DNA from: an uncultured Oscillospiraceae bacterium | GTDB lineage: Bacteria > Bacillota > Clostridia > Oscillospirales > Oscillospiraceae | Assembly (NCBI GenBank): GCA_947584295.1 | Contig: CANPWM010000015.1 | Span: forward strand, 1-38,847 | DNA length: 38,847 nucleotides | Direction of reading: 5' to 3' | Shown: piece after piece, positions 7,300 to 35,293 of the stretch | Position numbering within the stretch: the stretch's first letter is position 1 | How the letters are laid out: each line of letters begins with the position of its first letter | Translations under genes and position numbers: made by a program | Notes under the pieces: generated by a model | What the model was told of the DNA's origin: nothing | The model's database searches: none | The model's input: the letters and a program-made list of their open reading frames with translations, nothing else

Positions 7300-8365
7300 G
7301 TTCAACGCCGTAGGGGCCGGACACCTGGCCGGCCCGCCGGATTGCAGATAGGCTTTCCCATATGTTGTAGGGGCCGCCTCTCCAGGCGGCCCGCCGACAT
7401 ACGCAACGGCCTCCGCTTTTTGCGTTTATTTCGTACAACGATTCCGTAGGGGCCGCCGTCCCCGGCGGCCCGTCCATCGTTGATTGACAGCCCGGATATT
7501 GACCGGGACGGGTCGCCCGGGAGGGCGACCCCTACGGCGGTTATATTAAATTTCCCGTAATTCGTTTGGCGGGCCGCATTGGGGGCCCCATCGGGCCGTT
7601 GCCCGATGGGGAAAGGAGGAACGAACCGTACGCCTGAGCGTTCCCGCCGCGCGGGGACGCGAGGTGAAGCCGGTTCCGCGACGACGCGTCCGGCCCGTAC
7701 GGATAATTTTTACGTTGGGGGGAAGCGAAAAAATTATTGGGAAACCGTTGCGTATGACGGTGGGCCGCCGTGGGCGGCGGCCCGTACAGCCATTAACGAA
7801 ACAGCTCTATTAAACGCCGTAGGGGCCGCCGCCCACGGCGGCCCATATTTTTTAATATGCGGCGAAGCCGCAACCTTTTTGGGGGGCGGCATCGAAATTC
7901 GATAGGCGGGCCGCCAAGAGAGGCGGCCCCTACAAGCCCTAATGAAAGATTTTGCGAAAAATTGAGAAAAAATCTTCCTCAAAAGCCGTAGGGGCGGGTT
8001 CAAAACCCGCCCGAAATGGGAATACGCGGCGAAGCCGCAACCTTTTTGGGGAGGCGAAGCGTAATTCGTTTGGCGGGCCGGCCGGGTGTCCGGCCCGTAC
8101 GGAAATTGGTTCGTTGGGGGAAAATAAAAGATATGGGGAAGATGTTGCGCATGACGGTGGGCCGCCGTGGGCGGCGGCCCGTACGGCCATTAACGAAACA
8201 ACTCAATTAAACGCCGTAGGGGCCGCCGCCCACGGCGGCCCATATTTTTTAATACGCGGCGGAGCCGCAACCTTTTTAGGGGGGCGGCATCGTAATTCGT
8301 TTGGCGGGCCGCCTGGAGAGGCGGCCCCTACAAGGGTATACGAGAGGTTTGCGGGAATTCGGTAG
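7300..8365. repeat. Palindromic (REP-like) repeat array B
   Basis: The ~1.2 kb between the UDG start and the spoVAE stop holds no gene. It contains at least a dozen hairpin units with different stems but a common frame. GTAG feet are visible at 7310 (GGGCCGG stem), 7367 (GGGCCGCCT stem), 7446 (GGGCCGCCG stem), about 7820 and 7988 (GGGCGGGTT stem). Reversed units ending in CCCCTAC lie near 7505-7532, 7907-7932 and 8307-8332. Linkers GCGGCGAAGCCGC-AACCTTTTT occur near 7860, 8034 and 8250. Units alternate in orientation as in BIME-type REP clusters. A composite core lies at 7586-7702. Confidence 0.88.
7586..7702 (+). repeat. Composite repeat core, copy 2
   Basis: This copy is nearly identical to the cores at 61, 16873 and 38495. 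It has GAA for GAG and GTA for GTG in the shared frame, so the GTG that could act as a start codon in the other copies is lost here. Confidence 0.85.
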
Positions 8366-11611: not shown

Positions 11612-11833
11612 AGTTGTAGGGGCGGGTTCTAAACCCGCCCGTCGAATTGCAGAAAAGCTTTTCCATATGTTGTACGGGCCGCCTCTCTTGGCGGCCCGCA
11701 ATTGGGGCCCCATCGGGCCGTTGCCCGATGGGGAAAGGACGAGCCGAGCCTGCGCCTGAGGGCGAATACTTGCAGCCCGAGGTTAAGCGGCTCGCGCGAG
11801 GACGCGGCGGAGCCGCAACCTTTTTCGGCGGGC
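11612..11833. repeat. Palindromic (REP-like) repeat array C
   Basis: It lies between the convergent 3' ends of guaB and dacF. Units in order: GTAG-GGGCGGGTT hairpin (from about 11616), GTAC-GGGCCGCC hairpin (about 11673-11698), a divergent copy of the composite core (about 11707-11800, degenerate after the first hairpin) and the GCGGCGGAGCCGC-AACCTTTTT linker that abuts the dacF stop codon. Confidence 0.85.
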
Positions 11834-16254: not shown

Positions 16255-17090
16255 GCAGCCGCGGGGCGGCGGATCGGCGAAATACGCAACGAATTTTCAA
16301 TAATGATTTCGCTTTCCCCCCAACGCACAATTCCCCCCGTACGGGCCGGACGCGTCGTCGCGGAACCGGCCCAATGGGGCCCCAAAATGCGGTCCGCCCA
16401 TCGAATTACTGAACATCTATCAATCAGCCTTGTAGGGGCCGCCTCTCTTGGCGGCCCGCCGTCTTACGCAACATTTCCCCCATATCTTTTATCTCCCCAC
16501 AACGCACCAACCTCCCGTACGGGCCGGACACCCGGCCGGCCCGTCGAACGAATTCCCGGTGCATTACGTTGTATGCACCCGTAGGGGCCGCCGTCCCCGG
16601 CGGCCCGTCCCGATCATTCCCCGGGCGGTCAATCAACGGTGGACGGGTCGCCCGGGAGGGCGACCCCTACGAAAGCGTAAGAATGAGCCGTTACGAAATT
16701 CGATGGTTCCACGGGCCGCCAAGAGAGGCGGCCCCTACAACCACTGACGAAACAGCTCAAATAATCGCCGTACGGGCCGCCGCCCACGGCGGCCCACAAT
16801 GGGAATACGCGGCGGAGCCGCAACCTTTTTGGCGGGCGGAATCGAAATTCGATAGGCGGGCCGCATTGGGGGCCCCATCGGGCCGTTGCCCGATGGGGGA
16901 AGGAGGAGCGAACCGTGCGCCTGAGCGTTCCCGCCGCGCGAGGACGCGAGGTGAAGCCGGTTCCGCGACGACGCGTCCGGCCCGTACGGATAAATTGTTC
17001 GTTGGGGGAAAATAAAAAGATATGGGAAAGATGTTGCGCATGACGTGGGCCGCCGTGGGCGGCGGCCCGTACGGCCATTAACGAAAATTT
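16255..17090. repeat. Palindromic (REP-like) repeat array D
   Basis: It fills the gap between the ABC importer promoter and the tRNA-Gly(GCC) terminator. Units include a reversed composite core with an internal deletion of roughly 70 bp (about 16336-16385), GTAG-GGGCCGCC hairpins near 16432 and 16581, a GGGTCGCCC hairpin (about 16646-16671), a GTAC-GGGCCGCCG unit near 16770, the GCGGCGGAGCCGC linker near 16810, a full core at 16873-16989 and a terminal GGGCCGCCG hairpin at about 17047-17070. No credible gene was seen. Confidence 0.87.
16873..16989 (+). repeat. Composite repeat core, copy 3
   Basis: Same layout as the cores at 61, 7586 and 38495. Its only private difference is GGG for GGA in the shared frame. 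AGGAGG precedes a GTG codon by 8 nt. Confidence 0.85.
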
Positions 17091-17134
17091 TACGGAATGA
17101 ATTACAATACCCGTATGTTCGGAAGGAGGGGGTT

Positions 17135-17163
17135 GGAGGGGGAACCCTGATGGTTCCCCCTCC
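17135..17163. other. Perfect 12-bp hairpin of unknown role
   Basis: GGAGGGGGAACC and GGTTCCCCCTCC enclose a 5-nt loop. There is no clear T run on either strand. It lies between array D and the tRNA terminator. Confidence 0.6.
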
Positions 17164-17178
17164 GATTTGATCCTGCTC

Positions 17179-17224
17179 CACATAAAGAAATCCCTGTCCT
17201 GACGGACAGGGATTTCTTTATGTG
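17179..17224 (-). terminator. tRNA-Gly(GCC) terminator
   Basis: A perfect 21-bp stem with 4-nt loop overlaps the tRNA CCA end (17223-17225 on the plus strand reads TGG). The pairing extends 6 more positions (one wobble) into the acceptor strand. Confidence 0.85.
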
Positions 17225-17298
17225 GAGCGGCCTACGAGGCTCGAACTCGCTACCTCCACCTTGGCAAGGTGGCGCTCTACCAGATGAGCTAAGGCCGC
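17223..17298 (-). tRNA. tRNA-Gly, anticodon GCC
   Basis: Minus strand: acceptor GCGGCCT pairs with AGGCCGC. D arm is TAGCTCATCTGGTAGAGC. The anticodon arm CCACC-TTGCCAA-GGTGG reads GCC, decoding GGC and GGT. The T arm contains GTTCGAGCC. Discriminator T and an encoded CCA follow. Mature length is 76 nt with CCA. Confidence 0.97.
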
Positions 17299-17312
17299 GC
17301 GGAACGGTGTTT

Positions 17313-17341
17313 ATTATAGCCGCTCCGTTTTGGTTTGTCAA
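17313..17341 (-). promoter_or_regulatory. tRNA-Gly(GCC) promoter
   Basis: Perfect consensus: TTGACA (17341-17336), 17-bp spacer, TATAAT (17318-17313), 14 nt before the mature 5' end. It separates the tRNA from the upstream lipoprotein operon. Confidence 0.9.
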
Positions 17342-17361
17342 GAGTTTATCCAAAAATATTT

Positions 17362-18552
17362 TTACCAGCCTGCCGGGGGCGACAGGGGGCCGGGGTTATC
17401 CGCCGGAGGGTCAAACTCCGGGCCGTAGAGGGAGGGGCCGGAACACCAGGGGTAGAGGGTGGCGTCCCACCAGTAACCGGCGGAGTACTGCTGGTCGTCG
17501 TTTTTCAGCGGCGCGGCCTCCGGGTCGAAGGCGGTCATATCCACATGGTAGAGCTGGCCGTTGTCCAGCCGCACCAGGTTCCAGGCGTGGTCGCGGTTAT
17601 AAAAGCGCCCGCGTATGACGCGGCACTCGATGCCCAGCAGGTCGCACAGCAGCTTAAGGCCCATGGCGTAGCCCTCCCCGGCGGCCTTGCCCTGATCCAA
17701 GGCCCCGTAGGCGGTCATGGCGCTGTACCGGCGGGCCTGGGCGTCGGAGGTGTCCACGCTGCCGTCATATTCCACGTTCTGGCTGAAAAACTCCGCCAGG
17801 GCCATCAGGCGCTCCTGGTTGGTACCGGCGGGGATCCCGGCGGCGATCTGGGCGGCCCGGGCGGTCAGGGCGGCCCTGCGCTGCTCCACGGTGGGGTCGT
17901 CGTAGGGGTAAGTAAAGACGATCTCCAGGATCCGCTCCGGCCCTGTCTCCGGGTAGGCGGTCACGGTATAGGTGGGAATGTAAAGGATATCGCCGGGACT
18001 GCCGTAGTAGGCGTTCTCCACGGCGGCTTCCACGGCGTCCTCCCCCATATCCTCCCCGGTGAGCTTCACGGTGACGCTCTCGGCCCGGCGGGCCATGGCC
18101 TCCCGCATCAGCTCCTCCAGGGGCTCTTCCCCGGCGCAGACGGGGATCCCGGCGGCCTCCTCCGGGGTGTGGCGGTAGATCACGGAGACGCTGACCTCAT
18201 AGAAGGACACCAGGCGGTTGACGCTGTAATTGATGAAGTACACGCAGTAGGCGCCCAGGGCGGTATCGTTGGAGGCGGCAAGGCACGCCTCCGCCAGATC
18301 GCCCTCCAGGTTGCCGGGGTAGCTGCCCACCCGTATGACGCCCCGGGACGCGCCGGCGTCTACCAGCTCCTCCACCGCGCGGCAGATCTCCTCGTAATCC
18401 TTGGCCTCGAAGGCCAGCTCCACGTCCCCCGTGCCGCCGCCCTGCACGCCCACGTGTTCCCGGGAGGAGGCGTATTCCCCGCCCAGCAGGGAACCGCAGC
18501 CCGGCAGGGCCAGCAGGAGGGAGAGAAGCAGCAGTATGGCGGTAAATTTACG
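17362..18552 (-). CDS. Transglutaminase-fold lipoprotein lacking the catalytic cysteine
   Basis: About 396 aa. I favour the ATG at 18552, which has GGTGAT just upstream; GTG at 18564 and ATG at 18561 are alternatives. All overlap the parC-like stop. Lipobox LPGC follows a hydrophobic signal, so the protein is anchored outside the cell. The C-terminal region has the transglutaminase-like core: a helix (GKAAGEGYAMGLKLLCDLLG), then DHAWNLVRLDNG with the His, then YHVDMTAFDP with the Asp. In active members the helix reads roughly GKAVCxGYA; here the nucleophile position is Gly, so catalysis is not expected. It may be a binding domain. It is the last gene of the topoisomerase operon; no link to DNA topology is evident. 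Confidence 0.8.
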   Translation of the reverse strand, partial: RKFTAILLLLSLLLALPGCGSLLGGEYASSREHVGVQGGGTGDVELAFEAKDYEEICRAVEELVDAGASRGVIRVGSYPGNLEGDLAEACLAASNDTALGAYCVYFINYSVNRLVSFYEVSVSVIYRHTPEEAAGIPVCAGEEPLEELMREAMARRAESVTVKLTGEDMGEDAVEAAVENAYYGSPGDILYIPTYTVTAYPETGPERILEIVFTYPYDDPTVEQRRAALTARAAQIAAGIPAGTNQERLMALAEFFSQNVEYDGSVDTSDAQARRYSAMTAYGALDQGKAAGEGYAMGLKLLCDLLGIECRVIRGRFYNRDHAWNLVRLDNGQLYHVDMTAFDPEAAPLKNDDQQYSAGYWWDATLYPWCSGPSLYGPEFDPPADNPGPLSPPAGW

Positions 18553-20803
18553 CATTTTCATCACCCGTAAGCAGGGAAAGCTGTTGTTCCTCCCGATCCT
18601 CGTCCTTCAGCACGGCCCCGGCGGCAGGGACGGTGCGAACCCGGTAGCGGGAGACGTTTTTGACGGAGGTCTCGGAGAGCCTTCTGATCTCCCGGACCGT
18701 CCTGTTCTTTTTCAGGGCCACCACAGCCACGCCCTGGGTATTGCGGGTGGGCTTGGGGGCCAGAAGCGCCGTGGAGAAGACCACACACCTGTCGTCGGAG
18801 GTGTAGACCGCCGCCTCGAAATCCTCATAGACGGGCAGGAAGCCCACCAGAGGGCTTTTGTCGGAGTACGCGCCGGTCAGCTTTTTGCGGTTGGTCTTCG
18901 TCTCAAAGCCGGAAAGCTCCACCCTGGCTGCCTTGCCGTTTTCAAACATCAGGAGTATGGAGGCGGAGTAGTCGCCGGGGTCGCACACATAGAGGGCGTT
19001 CTCCCCGTCGTCCATCTTCAATTGCGTGGGCAGATATACGCCCAGGGCGGAAGCCTTGGTGTCGGGGATATCGGAAAGACGCGTCTTGTAGCACTGGCAA
19101 CGGTCGGTAAAGACCAGAAGCTCCGAGGAGTTGTTGGCCTCAAAGGCGCACTGGAGGCTGTCGCCCTCCTTGTATTTCTGCTCCCCGGACATACGCAGGG
19201 ACTGGGGGGTGATCTTCTTGAGATACCCGCCGCGGGTGAAGAACACGGTAACGGGGTAGTCGTCCGCCTCCGGCTCCTCCTCCGCCTCCACGATCTCGTG
19301 GGGGTAGACGATCTGGGTCTTGCGGGGTTCGGCGTATTTTTTGATCACCGCCTCCAGCTCGCGGCGAATGATGGTCTTGATGCGGCGCTTGTTTTGCAGG
19401 ATATCCTCCAGGTCGGCGATCTCCGCCTCCAGCTTCTCGATGTCCTCCAGGCGCTTTAAGATGTACTCCTTGTTGATGTTGCGCAGCTTGATCTCCGCCA
19501 CGAACTCCGCCTGGATCTCGTCGATGCCGAAGCCGATCATCAGGTTGGGGACGACCTCCCGCTCCTCCTCCGTCTCCCGAATGATCCTGATGGCCTTGTC
19601 GATGTCCAGGAGGATCTTCCCCAGGCCGCGCAGCAGATGGAGGCGGTCTTTTTTCTTTGTGAGATCGGCGAACACCCGGCGGCGCACCGATTCCACGCGC
19701 CAGGCCGTCCACTCGGACAAAATCTCCCGCACGCCCATGACCCTGGGGATACCGGCGATGAGGATATTGAAGTTGCAGGCGAAGGCGTCCTGCAGGGGCG
19801 TTGTCTTGAAAAGCTTGGCCATCAGCTTCTCGGGATCCACCCCGCGCTTTAAGTCCACGGTGAGCTTAAGGCCGGAGAGATCCGTCTCGTCCCGCATATC
19901 GGAGATCTCCCGGAGCTTGCCGGTCTTGACCAGATCCTCCACCTTGTCCATGATGGCCTCGGCGGTGGTGGTGTAGGGGATCTCGAAGATCTCGATCAGG
20001 TTCTCCTTCTTGTCGTACCGCCAGCGGGCGCGCAGCTTAATGCTCCCCTTGCCCGTCTCGTAGACCTCCCTCAGCGCCTGCGGCTCATAGATCACCTCGC
20101 CGCCGGTGGTGAAGTCCGGGGCGCGGAGGGTGAGGTATATGTCACAGTCCGGGTCGGAGAGGTACTCGATCTCCGTCCGGCAGACCTCCTCCAGATTGAA
20201 GGAGCAGATGTTGGAGGCCATGCCCACGGCGATGCCGGTGTTGGCAGACACCAGCACATTGGGGAAGGAGGTGGGCAGCAGGGTGGGCTCCTTCATGGTG
20301 GCGTCGTAGTTGTCCACAAAGTCCACGGTGTCGGAGTCGATGTCCCGGAAAAGCTCGGCGCAGATGGGCGAAAGCTTGGCCTCGGTGTAGCGGGAGGCGG
20401 CGTAGCTCAGGTCCCGGGAGTAGACCTTTCCGAAGTTGCCCTTGGAGTCCACAAAGGGGGTCAGCAGCGCCTCGTAGCCCCTGGACAGGCGGACCATCGT
20501 CTCATAGATGGCGGCGTCTCCGTGGGGATTCAAGCGCATGGTCTGGCCCACGATGTTGGCCGATTTCGTCCGCCCGCCGGTCAGGAGGCCCATCTTATAC
20601 ATGGTGTAGAGGAGCTTCCTGTGGGCCGGCTTGAAGCCGTCGATCTCCGGGATAGCCCGGGAGACGATGACCGACATGGCGTAGGGCATATAGTTCACCT
20701 CAAGCGTGTCGGTGATCTCCTGATCCAGCACCGCGGCGTGCAGGCCCATCACGTTGGGGTTGTTCTTTTTGACGTTTTCATCAGGCGATTTTTTCTTAGG
20801 CAT
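18548..20803 (-). CDS. Type II topoisomerase A subunit, ParC-like (non-canonical)
   Basis: 751 aa. The breakage-reunion domain is intact: the MPYAMSVIVSRAIPEIDGFKPAHRKLLYTM start, the helix with NPHGDAAIYETMVRL, and the active-site Tyr139 in AASRYTEAKLSP, which forms the covalent DNA link. A long coiled coil (about 410-480) is followed by a C-terminal beta-pinwheel region (about 500-725). No GyrA box (QRRGGKG-like) is visible, so this is probably a decatenase or relaxase, not a supercoiling gyrase. Its B subunit is encoded 2.2 kb upstream in the same operon, with sdaAB, sdaAA and a transposase gene between them. The start codon overlaps the RAYT stop, and its likely ribosome site (AAAGGA) lies inside the RAYT gene. 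Confidence 0.9.
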   Translation of the reverse strand: MPKKKSPDENVKKNNPNVMGLHAAVLDQEITDTLEVNYMPYAMSVIVSRAIPEIDGFKPAHRKLLYTMYKMGLLTGGRTKSANIVGQTMRLNPHGDAAIYETMVRLSRGYEALLTPFVDSKGNFGKVYSRDLSYAASRYTEAKLSPICAELFRDIDSDTVDFVDNYDATMKEPTLLPTSFPNVLVSANTGIAVGMASNICSFNLEEVCRTEIEYLSDPDCDIYLTLRAPDFTTGGEVIYEPQALREVYETGKGSIKLRARWRYDKKENLIEIFEIPYTTTAEAIMDKVEDLVKTGKLREISDMRDETDLSGLKLTVDLKRGVDPEKLMAKLFKTTPLQDAFACNFNILIAGIPRVMGVREILSEWTAWRVESVRRRVFADLTKKKDRLHLLRGLGKILLDIDKAIRIIRETEEEREVVPNLMIGFGIDEIQAEFVAEIKLRNINKEYILKRLEDIEKLEAEIADLEDILQNKRRIKTIIRRELEAVIKKYAEPRKTQIVYPHEIVEAEEEPEADDYPVTVFFTRGGYLKKITPQSLRMSGEQKYKEGDSLQCAFEANNSSELLVFTDRCQCYKTRLSDIPDTKASALGVYLPTQLKMDDGENALYVCDPGDYSASILLMFENGKAARVELSGFETKTNRKKLTGAYSDKSPLVGFLPVYEDFEAAVYTSDDRCVVFSTALLAPKPTRNTQGVAVVALKKNRTVREIRRLSETSVKNVSRYRVRTVPAAGAVLKDEDREEQQLSLLTGDENA

Positions 20804-21407
20804 GGGTATCGAGTCCTTTGCAATATTTCATATAATGCTTTGAGGCGTTGCAAGTGATATAGTTCCTGGTATTATACAGATCCTCGTCATTTCGGATAAT
20901 ATGCTCATAATATCCTCGATGCCAAAGAGTAAAACCTGCTTTTTTGGCTGTCAATGTCTTGAAAGAATCTATCATCTTCACCAAATCAGCCGTACGGGCC
21001 GCCGCCCACGGCGGCCCACCAACGCCGGGTTCGGTAATTTGAATGATCATATGGACGTGATCCGGCATGATCGTATACACATCTATCCGGGCATTTTCAT
21101 ACACAAAATTTATATTTTCGATATATTTCCTCACCATCTCGCCAATCGGGGTCAAAACGACAATCGGCGGCTCAATTGACGCGTCTCCATAGCCCGGTGC
21201 GGGTGGGCCGCCGTGGGCGGCGGCCCGTACGGCGTTGTTTTGAAGATAAGCGTTTTTGAATGGCGGCACCGGGATAATATGACTTAAAATATCGGCATTT
21301 CTCTCCTGGGTGTTAATTGTAACATAATAATACCCCGGCGTACCATAGTCGTAATCCTTAAGCCTTGGTTTTTTTCTCTCATGGAACTTTCTCTCGTTCT
21401 CAGTCAT
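20796..21407 (-). CDS. RAYT (REP-associated tyrosine transposase, Y1/IS200-like)
   Basis: 203 aa from the ATG at 21407, which overlaps the sdaAA stop (ATGA) and follows GGGAGAGGA. Family features: an N-terminal LKDYDYGTPGYYYVTINTQER strand region, the HUH motif in MPDHVHMII (H117, H119) and the catalytic Tyr region WHRGYYEHIIRNDEDLYNTRNYI (Y166 or Y167). RAYTs are stand-alone domesticated-looking relatives of TnpA that nick REP hairpins. Two segments, about residues 58-70 (NAVRAAAHGGPPA) and 128-141 (GVGGPPWAAARTAD), are translations of identical inverted copies of one of the window's own REP-like hairpins. Both fall in loops, and the frame is kept. No IS-like terminal repeats flank the gene. 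Confidence 0.88.
   Translation of the reverse strand: MTENERKFHERKKPRLKDYDYGTPGYYYVTINTQERNADILSHIIPVPPFKNAYLQNNAVRAAAHGGPPAPGYGDASIEPPIVVLTPIGEMVRKYIENINFVYENARIDVYTIMPDHVHMIIQITEPGVGGPPWAAARTADLVKMIDSFKTLTAKKAGFTLWHRGYYEHIIRNDEDLYNTRNYITCNASKHYMKYCKGLDTHA
20989..21020 (-). repeat. REP-like hairpin unit inside the RAYT gene (distal copy)
   Basis: 32-bp unit with a 9-bp stem GGGCCGCCG/CGGCGGCCC, loop of 4 and GTAC at the foot. It is an exact inverted copy of 21202-21233 and matches units in arrays B, D and E. Confidence 0.9.
21202..21233 (+). repeat. REP-like hairpin unit inside the RAYT gene (proximal copy)
   Basis: Exact reverse complement of 20989-21020 over all 32 bp, about 180 bp away. 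It is read in frame by the RAYT gene as RAAAHGGPP and neighbouring residues. Confidence 0.9.
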
Positions 21408-22268
21408 TCCTCTCCCCATTTTCTCCCCGTCTCTGTGGCCGCGAGGCCGCCTTGGGCGGTCTCGCGCAGGGCGGCGGGCATCATGTCCCCGATCTCCCCC
21501 ATGGCCTCGATCACCTCGTCGGCGGGGATACGGGACTCGATGCCTGCCAGGGCCATTTCGGCGGCGGTGAGGGCGTTGACGGCGCCGATGACGTTGCGCT
21601 TGATGCAGGGGACCTCCACAAGTCCCCCCACCGGGTCGCAGACAAGGCCCAGCAGGGACTTCAGCGCCAGGGCGGCGGCGTTGGCCATCTGCCGGCCCGT
21701 GCCGTCCCGCAGGTGGACGATGGCGGCGGCGGCCATGGCGGAGGCGGAGCCGATCTCCGCCTGACAACCGGACTGGGCGCCGGAGATGCTGGCCTTCCCG
21801 GCGATGATCCGACCGAACCCGGCGGCCACATAGAGGGCCTCCACGAGCTTTTCATCGGGCAGGCCCAGCGTCTCCCCGCAGGGCAGCAGCACGGCGGGCA
21901 AAACGCCGCAGGCCCCCGCCGTGGGGGCGGCTACGATGCGCTTCATGCAGGCGTTGCACTCGCCCATTTTCAGCGCGGCGGCGATCATGCGCCCCACAAG
22001 CGGGCCGGAGACGGATCGCCCGGAGGCCAGATAGTCCTCCATCTTCCCCCCCGTCCCCGCCGGACAGGCCGCTGAGGGAGCGGTGGCGGCGGTCATAGGC
22101 CGCGTCGGCGCTTTTCATAACGGCCAGCATCTGGGCCATTTTGGCCAAGGAGTCCTCCCGGGACATGCTCTGCTCGGCGCAGTCGGTGACCAGCACCGTC
22201 TCCCAGAGGGGCAGGCCCAGGGCCTCCGAAAGCTCCAGCAGCTGAGATACAGACGCGTAATCGCTCAT
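21404..22268 (-). pseudogene. sdaAA: L-serine dehydratase alpha subunit, frameshifted at a G7 tract
   Basis: The first part (ATG 22268, MSDYASVSQLLELSEALGLPLWETV to LSGLSGGDGG) and the rest (KMEDYLASGRSVSGPL to the stop at 21404) are in different frames. The break is at seven G on the coding strand (plus-strand C run 22046-22052). With six G the reading joins exactly as the family expects and gives a 287-aa protein, normal length. Iron-sulfur ligands are present downstream (APTAGACG, GCQAEIG, VEVPCIKRN). The intact enzyme with SdaAB deaminates L-serine to pyruvate. The start overlaps the sdaAB stop (ATGA). The lesion could be an inactivating mutation, a phase-variable tract, a site of transcriptional slippage or an assembly error. 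The rest of the gene is not decayed. Confidence 0.85.
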
Positions 22269-22936
22269 TTTGACTCCTCCCCCGGATTGAGGCGCGTCAC
22301 CTTGCTGACGCCCTCGATGGCGGATATGGCCATTTTCACCCTGTACGGGATCCGCTGGTCGCACTCGATGACCATAATGGCCGTGCCGCCCCGCTGGTCC
22401 CTCTCCACCCGGAGCTTGGACATATTGATGCCCTGGGCGGCCACCACGCCGGTGACGCGGCTGACGTGGCCGGGCCTGTCCTCGCATCGGACGATAAGCG
22501 TAGGCACCTCGCCGGAAAAGGCGGTGGGCAGGCCGTCCAGGGAGAACACCAAGATCCGCCCGCCGCCGGGGGAGGAGGCCCCCACCTCCACCCGCTCGCC
22601 CCGGTCGTTCTCCACGGTCAAAAGGGCGGAGTTGGGGTGGGCGTCCCGCAGGGCGGCGGTGCCGAATCCATAGGCCAGCCCCCGCTCCCGGGCGATCTCA
22701 AAGCTGCGGGGGATACGCTCGTCGTCGGGCATGAAGCCCATAAGGCCCGCCACCAGCGCCCTGGGGGTGCCGTGGCCCGCGCCGGTGGAGGCGAAGGAAC
22801 CGGCCAGCAATATCTTCGCCCGCACCGGCTCGCCGCCTACCAGGCGGCGGGTGATCTGCCCCATACGCACCGCCCCCGCGGTGTGGGAGCTGGACGGCCC
22901 CACCATTACGGGGCCCAGAATATCAAATATGGACAT
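22265..22936 (-). CDS. sdaAB: L-serine dehydratase beta subunit
   Basis: 223 aa from the ATG at 22936 (GGAGG upstream), the usual size; the ORF extends to 23062 but that part overlaps the parE-like gene and lacks homologous character. The N-terminus has the conserved IFDILGPVMVGPSSSHTAGAVR motif, then LAGSFASTGAGHGT and GFMPDDERIP. The C-terminal third (from about residue 145) is an ACT domain (VPTLIVRCEDRPGHVSRVTGVVAAQGINMSKL), a likely serine-sensing module. It pairs with SdaAA. Its start is 34 bp after the parE-like stop codon. Confidence 0.93.
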   Translation of the reverse strand: MSIFDILGPVMVGPSSSHTAGAVRMGQITRRLVGGEPVRAKILLAGSFASTGAGHGTPRALVAGLMGFMPDDERIPRSFEIARERGLAYGFGTAALRDAHPNSALLTVENDRGERVEVGASSPGGGRILVFSLDGLPTAFSGEVPTLIVRCEDRPGHVSRVTGVVAAQGINMSKLRVERDQRGGTAIMVIECDQRIPYRVKMAISAIEGVSKVTRLNPGEESK

Positions 22937-22970
22937 GGACGCCTCCCCCTCCCTAACGTCGCTTATACGA

Positions 22971-24956
22971 TCACGATATATCCGCCAAATCCAGATATTT
23001 ATACCCGTCCGAGGCGATGTGATCCTTCCGGGCCTGGATATTGTCCCCCAGGAGCATATCAAAGACCCGCGCCGTCTCCTCCGCGTCGGTGGGCAGCACC
23101 TTCACAAGCCGGCGCGTCTCCGGGTTCATGGTGGTCATCCACATCATGTCCGGGTCGTTTTCGCCAAGTCCCTTGGAGCGGGCCACGGTGTACTTCTTCC
23201 CCTCCAGACCGGCAAGAATGTCCGCCTTCTCCTTCTCGGTGTAGGCAAACCAGGTCTTGTCGCCGGAGTTGATCTCATAGAGGGGCGACTCGGCGATGAA
23301 CACCCGCCCCTCGTCGATCAGGGCCGGCATGAGCCGGTAGATCATGGTGAGGATCAGCGTCCTGATCTGATAGCCGTCGTAGTCGGCATCGGTGCAGATG
23401 ATGACCTTGCTCCACCGCAGGGAGTCCAGGTCAAAGGCCGTCAGGTCGCTTTTGAGCTTCACCGGCACGCTGACCCCGCACCCCAGGACTTTCACAAGGT
23501 CGGTGATGATGTCGGATTTAAAGATCCTGGCGTAGTCGGCCTTTAAGCAGTTCAGGATCTTCCCGCGCACGGGCATGACGCCCTGGAACTCCGCGTCGCG
23601 GCTGAGCTTCACGCTGCCCAGGGCCGAGTCGCCCTCCACGATGTAAAGCTCCGTCCTGGTGGCGTCGTGGGAGCGGCAGGGGACGAATTTCTGCACCCGG
23701 TTGGCGATGTCGATATTGCCGGAGAGCTTCTTTTTGATGGTGACACGGGCCTTCTCGGCCTGCTCGCGGCTGCGCTTGTTCACCAGGATCTGGTCGCAGA
23801 TCCGATCCGCCTCGGCCTTATGCTCGATGAAGTAGATCTCCAGCTGGGAGCGGAAAAACTCCGTCATGGCCGTCTGAATGAATTTGTTGGTGATGGCCTT
23901 TTTCGTCTGGTTCTCGTAGCTGGTCTGGGTGGAGAAGCAGTTGGTCACCAGGATAAGGCAGTCGGCGATGTCCTGAAAGCCGATCTTCGTCTCGTTCTTC
24001 TGGTATTTGTTCCCCTGCCGCAGATAGGCGTCCACCGCGGAGACGAAGGCGCTTTTGGCCGCCTTGTCCGGCGCGCCGCCATGCTCCAGCCAGGAGGAGT
24101 TGTGGTAATACTCGATGACGTTCACGCTGTTGGAGAAGCAGAAGGCGGCGGAGAGCTTCACCTTATATTCCGGCTTGTCCTCCCGGTCCCGGCCCTTGCG
24201 CTCCCCCTCAATGAAGTAGGGGGCGGTCAGGGGGTTCTCCCCGGCCAGCTCCGTGACGTAGTCCAAAATGCCATGCTCGTATAAAAATTCCTTCTCCTCA
24301 AACCGGCTCCCCGTCTGGAAGCGGAAAACGAATTTCACGCCGGGGTTCACCACGGACTGCTTTTTCAGCACGTCCTCAAAATATTCCCGGGGAATGTTGG
24401 TGTCGGTGAACACCTCCCGGTCAGGCCGCCATTTCATGCAGGAGCCGGTGCGGCGTCCGCTGTACGGCTCGCTGGAAAGGCCCCCGATGTTCTCGCCCTT
24501 TTCAAAGTGGAGGGAGTATTTCTTCCCGTCCCGCCAAACGGTGACGTCCATATACTCGGAGCTGTACTGGGTGGCGCAGGTACCAAGGCCGTTGAGGCCC
24601 AGGGAATACTCATAGTCCCCGCCGTTGTCGTTTTTATATTTGCCCCCGGCGTACAGCTCGCAGAACACCAGCTCCCAGTTGTACCGCTCCTCCACGCTGT
24701 TCCAGTCCACGGGACAGCCCCGGCCAAAGTCCTCCACCTCGATGGAGCCGTCGGAGAAGCTGGTCAGAATGATCTGACTGCCGTGGCCCTCCCGGGCCTC
24801 GTCGATGGAGTTGGAGAGGATCTCAAAAACCGAATGTTCGCACCCCTCCAGCCCGTCGGAGCCGAAAATGACGCCGGGGCGCTTGCGCACCCGGTCAGCG
24901 CCCTTCAGTTGACTGATGCTCTCGTTGCCGTACTCCTGTTTCGCGCCTTTTTTCAT
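22971..24956 (-). CDS. Type II topoisomerase B subunit, ParE-like (non-canonical)
   Basis: 661 aa from the ATG at 24956, which has AGGTGA 5 nt upstream; an in-frame GTG at 24965 is the alternative. The GHKL ATPase motifs are HSVFEILSNSIDEA (ATP-binding Asn and Glu), DFGRGCPVD and LGLNGLGTCATQY. A transducer domain follows, then TOPRIM with EGDSALG (Glu) and DADYDG (metal-binding Asp pair) and the C-terminal ARSKGLGENDPD. Canonical ParE/GyrB has EGDSAGGSAK and PLRGKILN; here these are EGDSALGSVK and PVRGKILN, marking a divergent paralogue. It partners the ParC-like protein of the same operon. It is the first gene of the operon and has its own promoter. Confidence 0.9.
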   Translation of the reverse strand: MKKGAKQEYGNESISQLKGADRVRKRPGVIFGSDGLEGCEHSVFEILSNSIDEAREGHGSQIILTSFSDGSIEVEDFGRGCPVDWNSVEERYNWELVFCELYAGGKYKNDNGGDYEYSLGLNGLGTCATQYSSEYMDVTVWRDGKKYSLHFEKGENIGGLSSEPYSGRRTGSCMKWRPDREVFTDTNIPREYFEDVLKKQSVVNPGVKFVFRFQTGSRFEEKEFLYEHGILDYVTELAGENPLTAPYFIEGERKGRDREDKPEYKVKLSAAFCFSNSVNVIEYYHNSSWLEHGGAPDKAAKSAFVSAVDAYLRQGNKYQKNETKIGFQDIADCLILVTNCFSTQTSYENQTKKAITNKFIQTAMTEFFRSQLEIYFIEHKAEADRICDQILVNKRSREQAEKARVTIKKKLSGNIDIANRVQKFVPCRSHDATRTELYIVEGDSALGSVKLSRDAEFQGVMPVRGKILNCLKADYARIFKSDIITDLVKVLGCGVSVPVKLKSDLTAFDLDSLRWSKVIICTDADYDGYQIRTLILTMIYRLMPALIDEGRVFIAESPLYEINSGDKTWFAYTEKEKADILAGLEGKKYTVARSKGLGENDPDMMWMTTMNPETRRLVKVLPTDAEETARVFDMLLGDNIQARKDHIASDGYKYLDLADIS

Positions 24957-25001
24957 ACTTTTCACCTATATGTTGTGTTTGTTTTACAATTTTGGTAGTT
25001 T

Positions 25002-25030
25002 ATTATACCATATCTTTTGCAATAAATCAA
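25002..25030 (-). promoter_or_regulatory. Promoter of the parE-like/sda/rayT/parC-like operon
   Basis: -35 TTGATT (25030-25025), 17-bp spacer, -10 TATAAT (25007-25002), about 45 nt before the parE-like start codon. Confidence 0.8.
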
Positions 25031-25200
25031 GCCCCGGCGCACATAATAGCCTCAGACGCGGCGCGGCTTTCCATTAGACCGGTGTCCCCGGGGCGAAAGA
25101 CAGACAAACGCCCATAGGACGAATGGTCAAAAGCCGTATGATCGGAGCGCCCCCTGTTCTGGTGACAGGTCGCCTCCTTTTGAAAAACGCGTCTTTAAAG

Positions 25201-25465
25201 AAGGGAGGGGCTTATTATGCTCCTCCCTTTAGTATACTGTCGAAAAAGGCTTAACAGCCTTTTTCCGACAAAAGGGAACGTGCGGGGAAATTTTCTGAAT
25301 TTTGCGAAATTCAGAAAATTTCCCCTGCCGTCACGCCGCGTGCGCCGCAAAGCGGCACACTTGCGTGACAAAAGGGATTTTTTCCGACGTACATGCCGCC
25401 GGAAAAAACATATATGGGGGTTTGTCTACACGCCGAAGGGGCCTCTGCTCCTCCCTTTAGTATAC
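25201..25465. repeat. Complex palindromic element (second repeat family), full copy
   Basis: Several hairpins lie in series: 25201-25229 (AAGGGAGG arms), 25239-25269 (GTCGAAAAAGGCT arms), 25284-25325 (a perfect 19-bp stem with TGCG loop), about 25330-25370 (GTCACGC arms) and 25378-25408 (TTTTTTCCG arms). A 19-bp direct repeat GCTCCTCCCTTTAGTATAC brackets them at 25219-25237 and 25447-25465. A shortened relative lies at 28721-28798. 25031-25200, upstream of the element, shows no gene and no riboswitch I recognise. Confidence 0.8.
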
Positions 25466-25529
25466 GCCGGAAAACGGCAAAAACAGGGAAATATGCCGGT
25501 TGTTTATCGTTTCTTAAAAAAATAACCCC

Positions 25530-25558
25530 TTTATTGTTAAGCCAACTGGGGGTATAAT
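25530..25558 (+). promoter_or_regulatory. Promoter of the two-component operon
   Basis: A perfect -10 TATAAT (25553-25558) lies about 30 nt before the response-regulator ATG. The -35 at 17-bp spacing is poor (TTTATT), suggesting a need for an activator, perhaps the regulator itself. Confidence 0.6.
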
Positions 25559-25588
25559 GGGGACAAATCCGAAAAAGGCGGTGCGTTT

Positions 25589-26284
25589 ATGTATAATATA
25601 CTCATCTGCGACGACGACAGGGATATCGTGGCGGCGCTGAAAATATATCTCTCCGGCCAGGACTACAATCTTTTCGAGGCCTACACCGGCAGGGAGGCCC
25701 TGGAGACGGTGGCCCGGAACGATATCCACCTGATCTTAATGGACATCATGATGCCGGAGCTGGACGGCATCGCCGCCACCTCCAAGCTCCGGGAGGAGTA
25801 CAATATCCCCATCATTCTGCTGACGGCCAAGAGCGAGGACACGGACAAGGTGCTGGGCCTCAACGTGGGGGCGGACGACTACATCACCAAGCCCTTCAAC
25901 CCCGTGGAGGTGCTGGCCCGGGTAAAGAGCCAGCTGCGCCGCTACACCATGCTGGGTGGCATGGAGCGCCGCCCCGACCACTACGTTATCGGCGGCATCG
26001 ACCTGGACGACGCGGGCAAGACCGTCACCGTGGACGGGGAGCCGGTGAGCCTCACGCCCACGGAGTTCGCCATCTTGCGCCTGCTTATGCAAAACCCCGG
26101 CAAGGTGTTCTCCTCCGGGGCCATTTACGCCCACGTCTCCGGCGGCTACGCCCTGTCGGCGGAAAGCTCCATCGCGGTACATATCCGGCATCTGCGGGAG
26201 AAGATCGAGATCACGCCCTCGGAACCGCGCTACATCAAGGTGGTGTGGGGCCAGGGCTATAAGATCGAGGGGGACGTCAAATGA
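25589..26284 (+). CDS. OmpR/PhoB-family response regulator
   Basis: 231 aa. The receiver domain has the acidic pocket CDDD (8-10), phospho-acceptor D52 in LILMDIMMPELDG, T79 and K101 in YITKPF. The winged-helix output domain spans about 130-231, with LTPTEFAILRLLMQNPGKVFSS and VHIRHLREKIE as the recognition region. It controls transcription once phosphorylated by the kinase encoded next. Its stop overlaps the kinase start (ATGA), so the pair is translationally coupled. Sequence style resembles VanR-like regulators of envelope genes; target genes cannot be named. Confidence 0.95.
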   Translation: MYNILICDDDRDIVAALKIYLSGQDYNLFEAYTGREALETVARNDIHLILMDIMMPELDGIAATSKLREEYNIPIILLTAKSEDTDKVLGLNVGADDYITKPFNPVEVLARVKSQLRRYTMLGGMERRPDHYVIGGIDLDDAGKTVTVDGEPVSLTPTEFAILRLLMQNPGKVFSSGAIYAHVSGGYALSAESSIAVHIRHLREKIEITPSEPRYIKVVWGQGYKIEGDVK

Positions 26285-27939
26285 AAAAGCTCACCTGTTC
26301 CTTCCCGGCCAAAGTGGCGGCCATCTTCCTCTGGGTACTCTGCGGCGTGGGCGGCGGGCTGTGCGTGGCCATCGCCTGCCTTGCGTATATGTGCGAGCTT
26401 TACACCGTCCCCTCCTGGTGCGGCTCGCTCCAGGCCGCCGTCAACTGGTTCAGGGCGGAGGATCGCCTGGACAACTATAAGCTGGAGCTGATGGAGGAGC
26501 ACGACCGGGTCTTTTCCATCGTCTTCCACATGCGGGTGTCCTCCATCGTCCTGGCGGTGCTGGCGGTAGTCCTCTTCATTCTGCTGTTCATCTTCCTCAT
26601 GTGCGCCGCCGGCAGGCGGCCCGGGGCGGAGGGGATCACCCTGAGCTTTTTTGATCGGATCCCCCTGGAGATCATTCTGGCCGTCCAGTTCCTCGCCCTG
26701 ATGCTGCTCACGTACGCCTTTGTGGAGACGGGCTATGCCTGGGGCCCCGACGATCCGGTGATCGTGGCGCTGCTGGTGAGCCTGGAGGGGGCGGCGGCGC
26801 TGCTGGTGCTGCTGACGGGGCTTTACACCTTCGCCGCCCGGATAAAGGCCGGCGGCTGGTGGCGCTGCACTCTTATCTATATGTGCCTGCGGCTCCTGTG
26901 GCGGGGCCTGCGGGGGACGTCCCGGTTCCTTCGGCGGCTTTTCCGGGCCCTGCGCCTGGAGTGGCGGGTTGCGCTGGCTTTTGCCGGGTTTTTCTTCGCC
27001 AATCTTTTCGCGCTCTTGATGTATTATAGCAGCGAGGATATGCTGTCGCAGATCATGTTCTGTATCCTGTGGCCTTTCGCCTTTGTGGTCATGGTGTTCG
27101 CCGCCAACCAGTTCCGCCGTCTCCGGGAGGGCGGCAAGAAGCTGGCCGCCGGGGAGCTGGATCACAAGGTGAACACGGACAAGATGTATTTCGACTTCCG
27201 GCTCATGGGCGAGGATCTCAACTCCATCGGCGAGGGTATGAGCGCGGCGGTGGAGCAGCGGATGCGCTCCGAGCGGCTGAAGACCGAGCTGATCACCAAC
27301 GTCAGCCACGACATCAAAACGCCCCTGACCAGCATCGTCAACTACGTGGATCTCCTGCAAAAAGACCACACGCCCCAGGAGGAGGCCCAGTATCTGGACG
27401 TTTTGAAGCGCCAGTCGGAGAAGCTCCGGCGGCTCACCCTGGATCTGGTGGAGGCCAGCAAGGCCAGCACCGGCAACCTGCCCACGGAGCTTGTCCCCAC
27501 CAGCGTCGGGGAGCTGATCAACCAGGCGGTGGCGGAATACGCCGACAGGTTCGCCCAGAGCGGCCTGGATCCCATCGTGACCCTGCCGGAGAAGCCCGTC
27601 TCCGTCCTGGCCGACGGGCGGCACCTGTGGCGGGTGCTGGACAACCTTTTCAACAACGCGGTAAAATACGCCCAGTCCGGGACGCGCGTCTACATCGACA
27701 CGCGCCGCCTGGACGGGGACGCGGTGATCTCCGTGAAGAACATCTCCCGGGATCGGCTCAACGTCTCCTCCGACGAGCTGATGGAGCGGTTCGTCCGGGG
27801 CGACGAAAGCCGCCATACGGAGGGTTCCGGCCTGGGCCTGTCCATCGCCCGCTCCCTGACGGAGCTTATGGGCGGCAAATTTGACATCAGCATCGACGGC
27901 GACCTCTTCAAAGCGGAGATCCGCCTGAGACTTGTATAA
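26281..27939 (+). CDS. Membrane sensor histidine kinase
   Basis: 552 aa. The N-terminal half is unusually rich in membrane segments: about 11-38, 86-110, 130-150, 160-184 and two close helices at 230-275, with a ~45-residue outer loop after the first. A HAMP-like linker (about 275-325) leads to HisKA with phospho-acceptor H343 in NVSHDIKTPLTSIVNYVDLL. HATPase_c has the N box LFNNAVKYA (456-464) and G box GSGLGLSIARS (515-525). The multi-helix input domain suggests sensing at or within the membrane. The co-encoded cysteine peptidase suggests a wall or envelope peptide signal, which is inference. Confidence 0.93.
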   Translation: MKKLTCSFPAKVAAIFLWVLCGVGGGLCVAIACLAYMCELYTVPSWCGSLQAAVNWFRAEDRLDNYKLELMEEHDRVFSIVFHMRVSSIVLAVLAVVLFILLFIFLMCAAGRRPGAEGITLSFFDRIPLEIILAVQFLALMLLTYAFVETGYAWGPDDPVIVALLVSLEGAAALLVLLTGLYTFAARIKAGGWWRCTLIYMCLRLLWRGLRGTSRFLRRLFRALRLEWRVALAFAGFFFANLFALLMYYSSEDMLSQIMFCILWPFAFVVMVFAANQFRRLREGGKKLAAGELDHKVNTDKMYFDFRLMGEDLNSIGEGMSAAVEQRMRSERLKTELITNVSHDIKTPLTSIVNYVDLLQKDHTPQEEAQYLDVLKRQSEKLRRLTLDLVEASKASTGNLPTELVPTSVGELINQAVAEYADRFAQSGLDPIVTLPEKPVSVLADGRHLWRVLDNLFNNAVKYAQSGTRVYIDTRRLDGDAVISVKNISRDRLNVSSDELMERFVRGDESRHTEGSGLGLSIARSLTELMGGKFDISIDGDLFKAEIRLRLV

Positions 27940-27960
27940 CATCGCAAAGGAACATACGCT

Positions 27961-28716
27961 ATGAAAACAAGATCAAAACGCTGGACAGGACTTCTGATCC
28001 TGGCGGCCATTCTCATTCTGCTGTGGGCCACGGTGAACGCCCTGGGCGGCGTGGACGGGATAAAGCGGCTGTGGCATCGGAGCCGCGCCTTCGCGGACAT
28101 CGACGATCAGACCGTCCGGGAGGCGTTTGTGGAGATCAGCGAGAAAAACCCGGAGGCCCAGGTGTACCTGGAGGGCTACCGGGGCATCACGGATTACGAC
28201 CTGACCCTGGATCTCACCGGGGAGCTGACGGCGGGCCAGATCCCCTACTTCACCCAGTGGGACAGCCGCTGGGGCTACTGCCGGTACGGCTCCGGCCTTA
28301 TCGGCTGGACGGGCTGCGGCCCCACGGCCCTATCCATGGTGGCCATGGGCCTCACCGGCAACGGCAAACTGACCCCGGCGTACCTGGCGGATTTCGCCGT
28401 CAACGAGGGCTACTGCGTGGCCGGCAGCGGGACGGCGTGGCTCCTTTTCTCCCAGGGCGCGGAGAAGCTGGGGCTGAAAGCCAAGGAGCTTATACTCTGG
28501 GAGGCCACCATGCGCGCCGAGCTGGAGGCCGGCCGGCCCATCATCTGCATCATGGGGCCGGGCCACTTCACCGAAACGGGACACTATATCGTCCTCACCG
28601 GGGCCACCCCGGAGGGCTTCACCGTCCTGGATCCCTACCGCCCCTCCAACTGCAAGACCTGGGCCTACGACGACATAAAGGACGAGATCAGAAACCTCTG
28701 GTCTTATGAGGTGTGA
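27961..28716 (+). CDS. C39-like cysteine peptidase, membrane-anchored
   Basis: 251 aa. A single N-terminal membrane segment (about 9-28) would place the domain outside the cell. After a linker, the Peptidase_C39_2-type domain starts at IPYFTQWDSRWGYCRYG. C119 is in GWTGCGPTALSMV, H208 in TETGHYIVLTG and D224 in VLDPYRPSN, a papain-like triad. The substrate is unknown; relatives act on cell-wall or signalling peptides. It is the third gene of the regulator-kinase operon (21-bp gap). A hairpin terminator begins 5 nt after its stop. Confidence 0.88.
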   Translation: MKTRSKRWTGLLILAAILILLWATVNALGGVDGIKRLWHRSRAFADIDDQTVREAFVEISEKNPEAQVYLEGYRGITDYDLTLDLTGELTAGQIPYFTQWDSRWGYCRYGSGLIGWTGCGPTALSMVAMGLTGNGKLTPAYLADFAVNEGYCVAGSGTAWLLFSQGAEKLGLKAKELILWEATMRAELEAGRPIICIMGPGHFTETGHYIVLTGATPEGFTVLDPYRPSNCKTWAYDDIKDEIRNLWSYEV

Positions 28717-28720
28717 GGCT

Positions 28721-28798
28721 GTCGAAAAAGCCCTGACGGGCTTTTTCCGACAAGGGGAACGTGCGGGATTTTTCCGACGTACATGCCGCCGGAAAAAA
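28721..28798 (+). repeat. Complex palindromic element, short copy (also operon terminator)
   Basis: The hairpin GTCGAAAAAGCCC-TGAC-GGGCTTTTTCCGAC (28721-28751) follows directly on the peptidase stop. The shared segment GGGAACGTGCGGG comes next, then the TTTTTCCG...CGGAAAAA hairpin with an identical 13-nt loop. Compared with the copy at 25239-25408 the two central hairpins are missing. Confidence 0.8.
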
Positions 28799-28826
28799 TT
28801 TCAAATTTGAGTTTTTTGACAATCTG

Positions 28827-28857
28827 AAACACGTGCGGGTCTGGCCCGCACGTGTTT
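28827..28857. terminator. Bidirectional terminator between convergent operons
   Basis: A 13-bp stem AAACACGTGCGGG/CCCGCACGTGTTT with 5-nt loop and further T on the plus strand. It lies between the peptidase and deacetylase 3' ends. Confidence 0.85.
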
Positions 28858-28872
28858 TTCAGTTTACAAGTC

Positions 28873-30207
28873 TTAAAGGCTCGCCGCCAGGAGCTTCAAA
28901 ACGGCCCCTCTGGTGAGGTTTTCAGGCGTCTCCGGGGCCTTCCCATAGAGGGCCTTGCAGAACGCGGCCAGCGTCTCCCCGGTCGCCGGGGCGTTGGGGT
29001 CGGCCTTCTCCGTTTTCGGAAGGCACCCCCGCTCCATGGCCAGCTCCACCGCCGCGCCGTAGGGGTGGGCGGCGGCAAGGCCGCAGGGCCAGGGGCCGGC
29101 CTTTTGCAAGACGCGCTCCACCCGCGCCTTGGCCGCCTCCCAGCCAAACGCCGTCTCACAAAGCTCCCCCACGGTCATCACCGCCTCCGGGCGCACGGTG
29201 TTGTCCCGGTAGGCGGGGCAGTACCCGCTTTTTACAAGCTTCCTGGCCGCCGGGAAGGCGTCGTCTCCCTCCCCCAAGTCGGCGAAGGGGGACAGCTCCA
29301 TCAGCTCCGACACCGTCACCACCCGGTATCCGGCCCCGGCCAGGAGCTTCAGCTGGATCTCCAGCCCGTCGGCGATGGGGGTGCGGCGGGCCATGTTGAA
29401 CCCGTCCTTCTGGAAGATGATCTGCCCGCACAGGCTGTCCGGGTCGGCGGCCAGGGCCCGCTCCAGGGGCCTCCAGGTGGCCTCCACCTCGGCCTCGTAG
29501 GAGCTCAGCGGCAGCCAGCCCGCGCCGTCGAAGCTGGCGGCCATATACTGATAGCCCATCAGGGCCAGCGCGTCGTAGCTGGAAAGCCCCGGCCCGATCC
29601 TGTCCACATAGTGGGGCGGACGGGACAGGCTGATGGCGTACCCGTGGCGCTCCCGCAGCAGGGTATGGAGCTTTTCAAGGTCGGCCACCGCCTTTTCGAT
29701 GTCCCCCAGGTAGTGCCTCCGGCCGTAGACCAGGGGCTTCCAGCCGTACAGGACGTGGGCGTAGGTGTGGCTGGTGATCTCATGGCCCCCGGAGAGAAGC
29801 CTGTCGATCTCCTCCCGGCAGACCTCCGCGCCGCCCTGGCTGTCGCGGCCGAAATCCGGGTAGTGGTCGTATCTTTTCCCGCCCCAGGAGGCGGAACCCT
29901 CCTTGCCCGGCTCGTCGGGGTAATTCCCGGCAGTGGAACCCACCACGTCAAAGGTACCCCTGGCCCCGTACCGCTCCAGCGTGTCCGCCAGCGTCATGGT
30001 CAGGCCCTTCTCATGGGTTCCCTGGGGGTTGGGGAGCATCTGGCAGGGGCCGTCGTCAAAGGTCATGGCGACGACGCGCTTTGCGGTCTTCACCCGCTCG
30101 ATTCGCCGCACCGGCGACACGTACACGGGGGTGTTGGCCTTGATCTGCGCCTCAAAGCGGTGCTTCACCTTTTTGGCGGCTCCGATACATTTTGTCACGA
30201 CAGACAT
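28873..30207 (-). CDS. Polysaccharide deacetylase (NodB domain) with C-terminal SLH-like region
   Basis: 444 aa. NodB motif 1 is TFDDGP (49-54), with Asp as base and metal ligand; motif 2 is SHTYAH (H147, H151); motif 3 is SRPPHY (195-200). It removes acetyl groups from N-acetylated sugars of wall glycan or capsule. There is no clear signal peptide: the N-terminus is basic (AAKKVKHRFEAQIKANTP). The last ~110 residues (from EAVMTVGELCETAFGW to TRGAVLKLLAASL) look like degenerate S-layer-homology repeats, which in other proteins bind wall polymers. GAGGAG lies 8 nt before the ATG. It is the last gene of a three-gene operon with PHP and ATP-grasp enzymes. Confidence 0.88.
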   Translation of the reverse strand: MSVVTKCIGAAKKVKHRFEAQIKANTPVYVSPVRRIERVKTAKRVVAMTFDDGPCQMLPNPQGTHEKGLTMTLADTLERYGARGTFDVVGSTAGNYPDEPGKEGSASWGGKRYDHYPDFGRDSQGGAEVCREEIDRLLSGGHEITSHTYAHVLYGWKPLVYGRRHYLGDIEKAVADLEKLHTLLRERHGYAISLSRPPHYVDRIGPGLSSYDALALMGYQYMAASFDGAGWLPLSSYEAEVEATWRPLERALAADPDSLCGQIIFQKDGFNMARRTPIADGLEIQLKLLAGAGYRVVTVSELMELSPFADLGEGDDAFPAARKLVKSGYCPAYRDNTVRPEAVMTVGELCETAFGWEAAKARVERVLQKAGPWPCGLAAAHPYGAAVELAMERGCLPKTEKADPNAPATGETLAAFCKALYGKAPETPENLTRGAVLKLLAASL

Positions 30208-30219
30208 AGATCTCTCTCC

Positions 30220-35283: not shown

Positions 35284-35293
35284 ACAAATCCTC

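Follow-up and report, generated by a model that had tools for sequence, protein, structure and literature searches.

In-frame repetitive extragenic palindromic (REP) sequences have been reported from the genes of some REP-associated tyrosine transposases (RAYT, TnpA_REP): the main text of Quentin et al. 2018 (PMC6006769) describes them for tnpA_REP genes of subclass 2.4, generally between the HUH motif and the tyrosine, in a variable region considered to be possibly of little impact on activity. Subclass 2.4, which according to the same text corresponds to RAYT group 4 of Bertels 2017, is characterized by long REPs that have a GT[AG]G foot and a stem closed at its base by three G-C pairs, and is said there to be abundant in Cyanobacteria and Bacteroidetes and scattered over other phyla. 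Intragenic REPs in unrelated genes, as well as RAYT genes flanked by REPs, are covered in the text of Di Nocera et al. 2013 (PMC3733652). Here we describe a stretch of 38,847 nt (contig CANPWM010000015.1; hereafter the window) from an uncultured Oscillospiraceae bacterium, in which a RAYT gene carries two identical, mutually inverted 32-bp REP units in frame, flanking its HUH codons. The relevant features are as follows:

20796..21407, minus strand: RAYT (TnpA_REP) coding sequence, start codon ATG at 21407; an alternative in-frame upstream ATG at 21419 is possible
21202..21233, minus strand: arm 1, 32-bp REP unit with GTAC foot, sense relative to the gene; spans residues 63-73, ahead of the HUH codons
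21051..21059, minus strand: HUH motif codons H121, V122 and H123, between both REP arms; H121 and H123 invariant in alignments
20989..21020, plus strand: arm 2, exact inverted copy of arm 1, after the HUH strand (residues 134-144)
20919..20924, minus strand: W166-H167, guide-reading pair, role assigned via the E. coli residues in PMC6006769
20859..20861, minus strand: Y187, presumed catalytic tyrosine, invariant; role assigned by alignment with E. coli TnpA_REP
8156..8187, minus strand: exact dispersed copy of the 32-bp unit; the REP array to which it belongs (about 7.43-8.28 kb) separates longer frames
16767-16798, plus strand, and 17044-17075, minus strand: dispersed copies with 1 mismatch

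The initial annotation had read this gene as encoding a HUH/Tyr protein of the RAYT type and had seen the two inverted units within it, and both parts are borne out. The units lie in frame at the positions claimed and enclose a coding segment of 181 nt, and H121, H123 and Y187 are unchanged across alignments of 10 and 62 proteins, giving the HUH motif plus single downstream tyrosine by which RAYTs are recognized. Fold and sequence of the protein are nearer to TnpA_REP than to IS200 TnpA, the closest solved structure being 4er8, the E. coli enzyme. With NCBIfam NF047646 it scored 56.7 bits, below the curated cut-off of 80 bits, so that the RAYT name rests on the HUH/Tyr arrangement and on fold and sequence; judged by these, the product of 20796-21407 is a RAYT/TnpA_REP, and as such would be expected to cut and rejoin REP single-stranded DNA (ssDNA). 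A Pfam Y1_Tnp search of the genome returned four places, the RAYT with a weak match and three strong ones that we take as ordinary IS200-type genes, and a search of the genome with the RAYT protein matched this gene alone, yielding no second copy at the protein level.

The 32-bp unit, with its GGG/CCC stem base, is a member of a dispersed family. Allowing up to 3 mismatches, 10 copies were found in the window versus 0 in 100 shuffles, and 141 in the REP-rich genome (2.35 Mb, a 123-contig assembly) versus 0 for the reversed pattern; the eight window copies outside the gene, near 0.5, 7.8-8.2, 16.8-17.1 and 38.7 kb, all fall where no longer frame runs. The two in-gene units are thus in-frame REPs, situated in two variable segments that appear as low-confidence linkers in a structure model. 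That they represent the gene's own, cognate REP, as had been presumed at the outset, is very probable, since they match the dispersed family as well as each other and since the foot base tracks a guide-contacting residue (see below). Dense REP arrays of several hairpin families occupy positions 314-574, 7281-8350, 11616-11700, 16332-17075 and 38354-38696 of the window and include GTAC feet, GTAG feet and the GGGTTCAAAACCC type; an AT-rich palindrome at 1983-2007 (GTATGATATCAT...) differs from the REPs.

The locus resembles subclass 2.4, as presented in the main text of Quentin et al., in having a HUH/Y1 enzyme, in-frame REPs in its own gene, a region of variable sequence that follows the HUH strand and precedes Tyr, REPs that are long and G-C paired at the stem base, and no C-terminal extension. 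Its unit has the expected stem base but a GTAC foot, most relatives having GTAG, and whereas that main text generally places the REPs between HUH and Tyr, those of the window gene and of most relatives scored form an inverted pair around HUH. The initial suggestion that REPs read through within a RAYT gene would be new is not supported, the report on subclass 2.4 having preceded it, and the novelty is partly taken: in-frame REPs in tnpA_REP genes were already known, while in the open-licence literature, taken without supplements such as Figure S10 of Quentin et al., we found no description of the inverted pair around HUH, the identity of its arms, the constancy of their orientation, the inverse relation to flanking REPs or the link between foot and guide residue. 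The E. coli REPtron (rayT plus flanking REPs) likewise combines a related enzyme (4er8) with a GTAG-foot REP in cis, but there our hairpin scan finds none inside the gene and one in the downstream flank, whereas the window RAYT has REPs inside and none flanking it, the scan detecting no hairpin at 17,072-20,992 or 21,230-38,389. In REPINs, two inverted REPs are mobile as a unit. Like these, the two REPs here are able to form a long hairpin; unlike in a REPIN, the 181 nt between the arms are coding, and no second copy of the gene was found in the genome at the protein level. Rickettsia palindromic elements and other intragenic REPs share the in-frame translation of palindromic repeats, but the hosts listed in the text of PMC3733652 are unrelated genes rather than the gene of the presumed mobilizing enzyme.

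To what extent the arrangement recurs was surveyed in two sets of homologues. Set 1 comprised 125 distinct homologues from the genus, the family and named genomes, 121 of which were scored and four dropped as short or without recognizable HUH; set 2 consisted of 78 further family genes that had played no part in framing the hypothesis (80 places drawn from a longer list of matches, from which one was skipped and another dropped as a duplicate). Removal of redundancy was confined to exactly identical proteins, so that near-copies remain, and a broken gene (G016, L040) was counted in the state in which it was found. Defined by scan as a sense hairpin before HUH plus an antisense hairpin after it, the pair was present in 83/121 genes of set 1 and in 61/78 of set 2, hence in 144 of the 199 scored homologues; direct comparison of the arms raised these numbers to 92 and 63, the 11 added inverted pairs including L125 (both arms before HUH) and L271 (opposite orientation). 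At least one REP at either place was seen in 109 and 70 genes, respectively. By direct arm comparison a separated inverted pair was found in 83 of the 125 distinct homologues. At the genus level, 13 of 34 genomes had a RAYT match, and 10 of the 12 homologous frames examined contained the separated inverted pair, in most cases formed by REPs of another type. Within set 1 the pair occurred in 90/109 Bacillota genes (38 of which were assigned there through their relationship to the window genome) versus 2/12 others, and named isolates with the same arrangement include Gemmiger formicilis DFI.6.10 and Ruminococcus flavefaciens SAb67. The proposed alignment with homologues thus gave a different outcome from the two that had been envisaged: instead of relatives without the segments, or with unrelated DNA there, it revealed other REPs at both places.

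The pair was found in none of 1250 codon shuffles and in none of 701 non-RAYT control stretches, 33 of which had any hairpin, as scanned with an earlier version of the hairpin scan, later corrected, which mis-scored the window gene and its orthologue because the palindrome is also readable from GTGG. An earlier control run had given 5/744 matches, in L050, L058, L138, L141 and L154, all of them RAYT-bearing loci, which were excluded from the 701 controls along with 12 other loci. On a tree whose deep branches are poorly supported, one analysis of which used uncorrected pair labels, the pair state required 22 changes versus a shuffled mean of 26.1, a value as low being reached in 10/500 cases. 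The pair is widespread, and its state has changed several times. Some genes (L146, L078, L074, L113) carry different REPs at the two places. As separate observations, locus L041 (G033) has several in-frame direct REP copies in loop 1, giving a protein of ~306 residues, and L047 1110-1963 (G028) is a tandem array of ~4 units of 212-216 bp, each with a REP and the 3' coding part of a RAYT; here the end of a transposase gene has itself been amplified between REP boundaries.

Position and orientation of the in-gene REPs are nearly constant. Hairpins before HUH were 94+/4- in set 1 and 67+/5- in set 2, those after HUH 98-/4+ and 65-/1+, such that the foot is directed outward from the HUH segment on either side. 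The exceptions in set 1, with L125, L137 and L077 among the genes with other orientations, include genes of Fibrobacterota, Pseudomonadota, Chloroflexota and Omnitrophota plus three of Bacillota, and their existence indicates that the other orientation can be read through. The loop-1 reading frame is nearly constant (92/94 in set 1, 57/67 in set 2), which could be taken to mean that the REP-coded peptides are selected as parts of the protein. We regard such a peptide-level function as quite unlikely: the loop-2 frame varies (83/13/2 and 51/14), implying that the DNA and not one peptide is kept, the peptide sequence changes with the REP type, at the DNA level the arms vary less than the remaining coding sequence (see below), and the segments are predicted at low confidence.

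REP type differs between species, and the arms of one gene mostly match, being equal in 35/83 and within 2 mismatches in 72/83 scan pairs of set 1, and within 2 mismatches in 54/61 of set 2. Complementarity beyond the REP extended by a mean of 1.22 nt (5') and 1.26 nt (3'); we make no claim of direct copying from arm to arm beyond the REP, since these nearest bases may belong to the REP itself. Shuffling of a cassette between the arms is unsupported as well, inner and outer protein segments showing no special disagreement (distance correlations of 0.31 and 0.39 versus 0.31 for the N- versus C-terminal part; the same nearest neighbour in 17 and 27 versus 18 of 83 genes). Matching arms might also act at the RNA level, pairing in the mRNA as a long stem round the HUH codons and thereby limiting RAYT synthesis, alone or with bound RAYT. 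The fold computed for the 266-nt stretch has -136.4 kcal/mol (z -8.46) and joins the two arms in one stem, and attenuation could matter in a gene that overlaps both neighbours. Any inverted GC-rich pair would fold in this way, however, so that the fold is not independent evidence; moreover, the unlike REPs of L146, L078, L074 and L113 would pair less well, and the joint change of foot and guide residue points to recognition by protein. Autoregulation through RNA is an explanation that we hold to be improbable.

Genes with the internal pair usually lack flanking REPs, and those without it usually have them. In set 1, REPs within 400 nt of the gene were found for 15/88 pair genes versus 19/26 others (p 1.9e-7; 7 genes had too little flank), in set 2 for 18/63 versus 15/15 (p 2.4e-7), with a hairpin score that was stricter in set 1 than in set 2. 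In a weak test, the in-gene unit itself occurred in the flanks of 17/83 genes versus 140/6806 mismatched combinations. In the window, the ATG at 21407 overlaps the stop of the gene for the L-serine ammonia-lyase alpha subunit by 4 nt (ATGA), and the last 8 nt of the RAYT overlap the start of the gene for a type II topoisomerase subunit A; overlapping its neighbours at both ends, the gene has no flank to hold REPs. Six genus homologues share a DTHA C-terminus, which in the window is coded by the topoisomerase-gene overlap.

These data bear on the main rival explanation, according to which selfish REPs insert preferentially near the gene of their transposase, where only these two variable segments accept them, and are then homogenized with genomic REPs by conversion, without any benefit. 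The low-confidence linkers predicted for both segments, the multi-REP loop 1 of L041 and the REP-bounded 3' amplification of L047 are in line with it, as are the intragenic REPs in unrelated genes discussed in the text of PMC3733652 and the opinion in the main text of Quentin et al. that tnpA_REP insertions may matter little. It leaves unaccounted for that the opposite orientation is nearly fixed although others are readable and do occur (L125, L137, L077, L271), that the pair trades off against flanking REPs in both gene sets, and that foot and guide residue are associated. We assign this explanation a limited but real chance.

Conservation of the arms at the DNA level was assessed by comparing genes pairwise. 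Window gene and its G022 orthologue (86% protein identity) differ at 65 of 618 nt; only 2 of the 64 arm bases are affected, at mirrored places of both arms, and the other 63 differences are distributed 14/11/38 by codon position, as expected for a constrained protein. The mirrored change, the presence of the arrangement in this orthologue and its recurrence in many other assemblies, including those of the two named isolates, render an assembly or annotation artefact scarcely credible, even in a repeat-rich draft genome of 123 contigs with many REPs. Among 19 gene pairs compared, we summed over ten close pairs using no gene twice (one pair being two copies in one locus) and counted 13/504 nt changed in the arms versus 945/4692 in the aligned rest. 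In L070 and L079, one of the nine remaining pairs, both arms are identical despite 56% third-position changes, and in G031 both arms have switched in parallel, relative to the window gene, to one new unit (5 and 5 of 26).

For E. coli TnpA_REP, residues W94, Q95, E100, H101 and R104 are described in the main text of PMC6006769 as involved with the GTAG guide. At the position of Q95, each of the 154 GTAG-foot genes whose motif was scored has Q, 8 further GTAG genes being without a scored motif, and 4/4 GTAC-foot genes have H. These four, from three lineages, comprise the window gene with its orthologue as well as L256 and L297; window gene and orthologue had suggested the link in set 1, and set 2 supplied the other two. 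The prediction that H goes with GTAC was put to a pattern search of 394 order-level and 398 phylum-level genomes, overlapping sets that both contain the window genome, with a pattern covering part of the possible H-type motifs. It returned three new places in two genomes, one of them a fragment without HUH or in-gene REP and the other two the near-identical H-type genes of G549, which have GTAG (see below). The foot/guide table reads 4/0/2/154 (Q in 154/156 GTAG genes), with p 5.7e-7 uncorrected for kinship; the association of foot and guide residue is strong, though it is not a strict code. Six genes with a GTGG foot also differ at the next two positions after the guide residue. L297 (G179) has, on the minus strand at 189, 319 and 690, upstream hairpins with a GTAG foot and an in-gene one with GTAC beside its H-type residue.

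For five in-gene units, copies with up to 1 mismatch were tallied across 14 genomes of the genus, in-gene copies included. The own genomes contained 145 (G000), 43 (G031), 89 (G017), 48 (G027) and 28 (G032) copies, and G023, G005, G019 and G024 contained 0 of all five units. When 20-200 kb per genome were sampled, 8/9 genomes had the in-gene unit among their dispersed hairpins, G022 and G032 with a single copy each; the ninth, G174, was negative in a sample of only 20.6 kb. Several REP families are shared among genomes of the genus, and the notion of one REP per species is ruled out, the in-gene unit being one of these families, neither always the commonest nor always commonest at home. Like the window gene, most Clostridia relatives examined contain mirror-image hairpin copies in frame, though of different types; this suggests that the target of the enzyme is carried along within its coding sequence.

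We consider it probable, short of certain, that the locus is an internalized REPtron, a gene that retains its cognate REPs in cis, within itself and as DNA. The enzyme would be a domesticated REP transposase like those of subclass 2.4/RAYT group 4 whose cognate REPs moved from the flanks into the gene, where, as an inverted pair, they occupy two tolerant segments either side of the HUH-coding stretch. Presence, position and orientation of the pair, its match to dispersed REPs, its conservation as DNA, the trade-off with flanking REPs and the association with the guide residue are direct observations. The pair would be maintained as DNA, by selection for cognate in-cis hairpins and/or by turnover with dispersed REPs, possibly through conversion or RAYT-driven replacement; REP sequence and foot would track the specificity of the enzyme, with position and orientation nearly fixed. 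Such a reading entails that the enzyme binds and nicks the in-gene hairpins as ssDNA, which we infer from sequence relationships, and that the in-cis pair presumably brings a benefit, be it as a substrate inherited along with the enzyme or as a site of self-regulation, beyond being tolerated.

Several observations speak against an internalized REPtron of this kind. Tolerated insertion plus gene conversion would yield much of the pattern without benefit. The arms differ by at least 3 bases in 18/144 scan pairs, five family genes of set 2 deviate in orientation, the pair of L271 being fully reversed, and in the other nine gene pairs, more distant or overlapping, the arms differ at 0-15 of 23-27 positions, partly by register shift. 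The G031 unit has 43 copies in its own genome and 133 in G000, the G032 unit 28 at home and 146 in G033, and G013 and G020 contain many REPs of these families and no RAYT match at the threshold used, representing either orphan REPs or a lost enzyme. Finally, the two near-identical H-type genes of G549, both truncated where the retrieved stretch ends, have GTAG in loop 2. A strict guide code (H = GTAC) is broken by this lineage: so far GTAC implies H, and H does not imply GTAC.

A bolder version, which we hold to be conceivable yet rather doubtful, sees a self-contained REPtron, with enzyme and obligatory cognate REP pair as one object. The pair would then serve as a working operator or as the master copy from which dispersed REPs derive, and by acting on it the enzyme would excise or lock the catalytic HUH segment, a built-in brake. 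If this were true, target and enzyme would always be inherited together, and guide residue and foot would change within one gene.

The case bears on the open question of how RAYTs are assigned to the REP families they act on and how the match between enzyme and repeats is preserved over long times. If the in-gene REPs are cognate, each gene would name its own substrate, and specificity would become readable from sequence and testable by swapping one residue and one base. The locus would also provide a natural case of a coding sequence held to a DNA hairpin.

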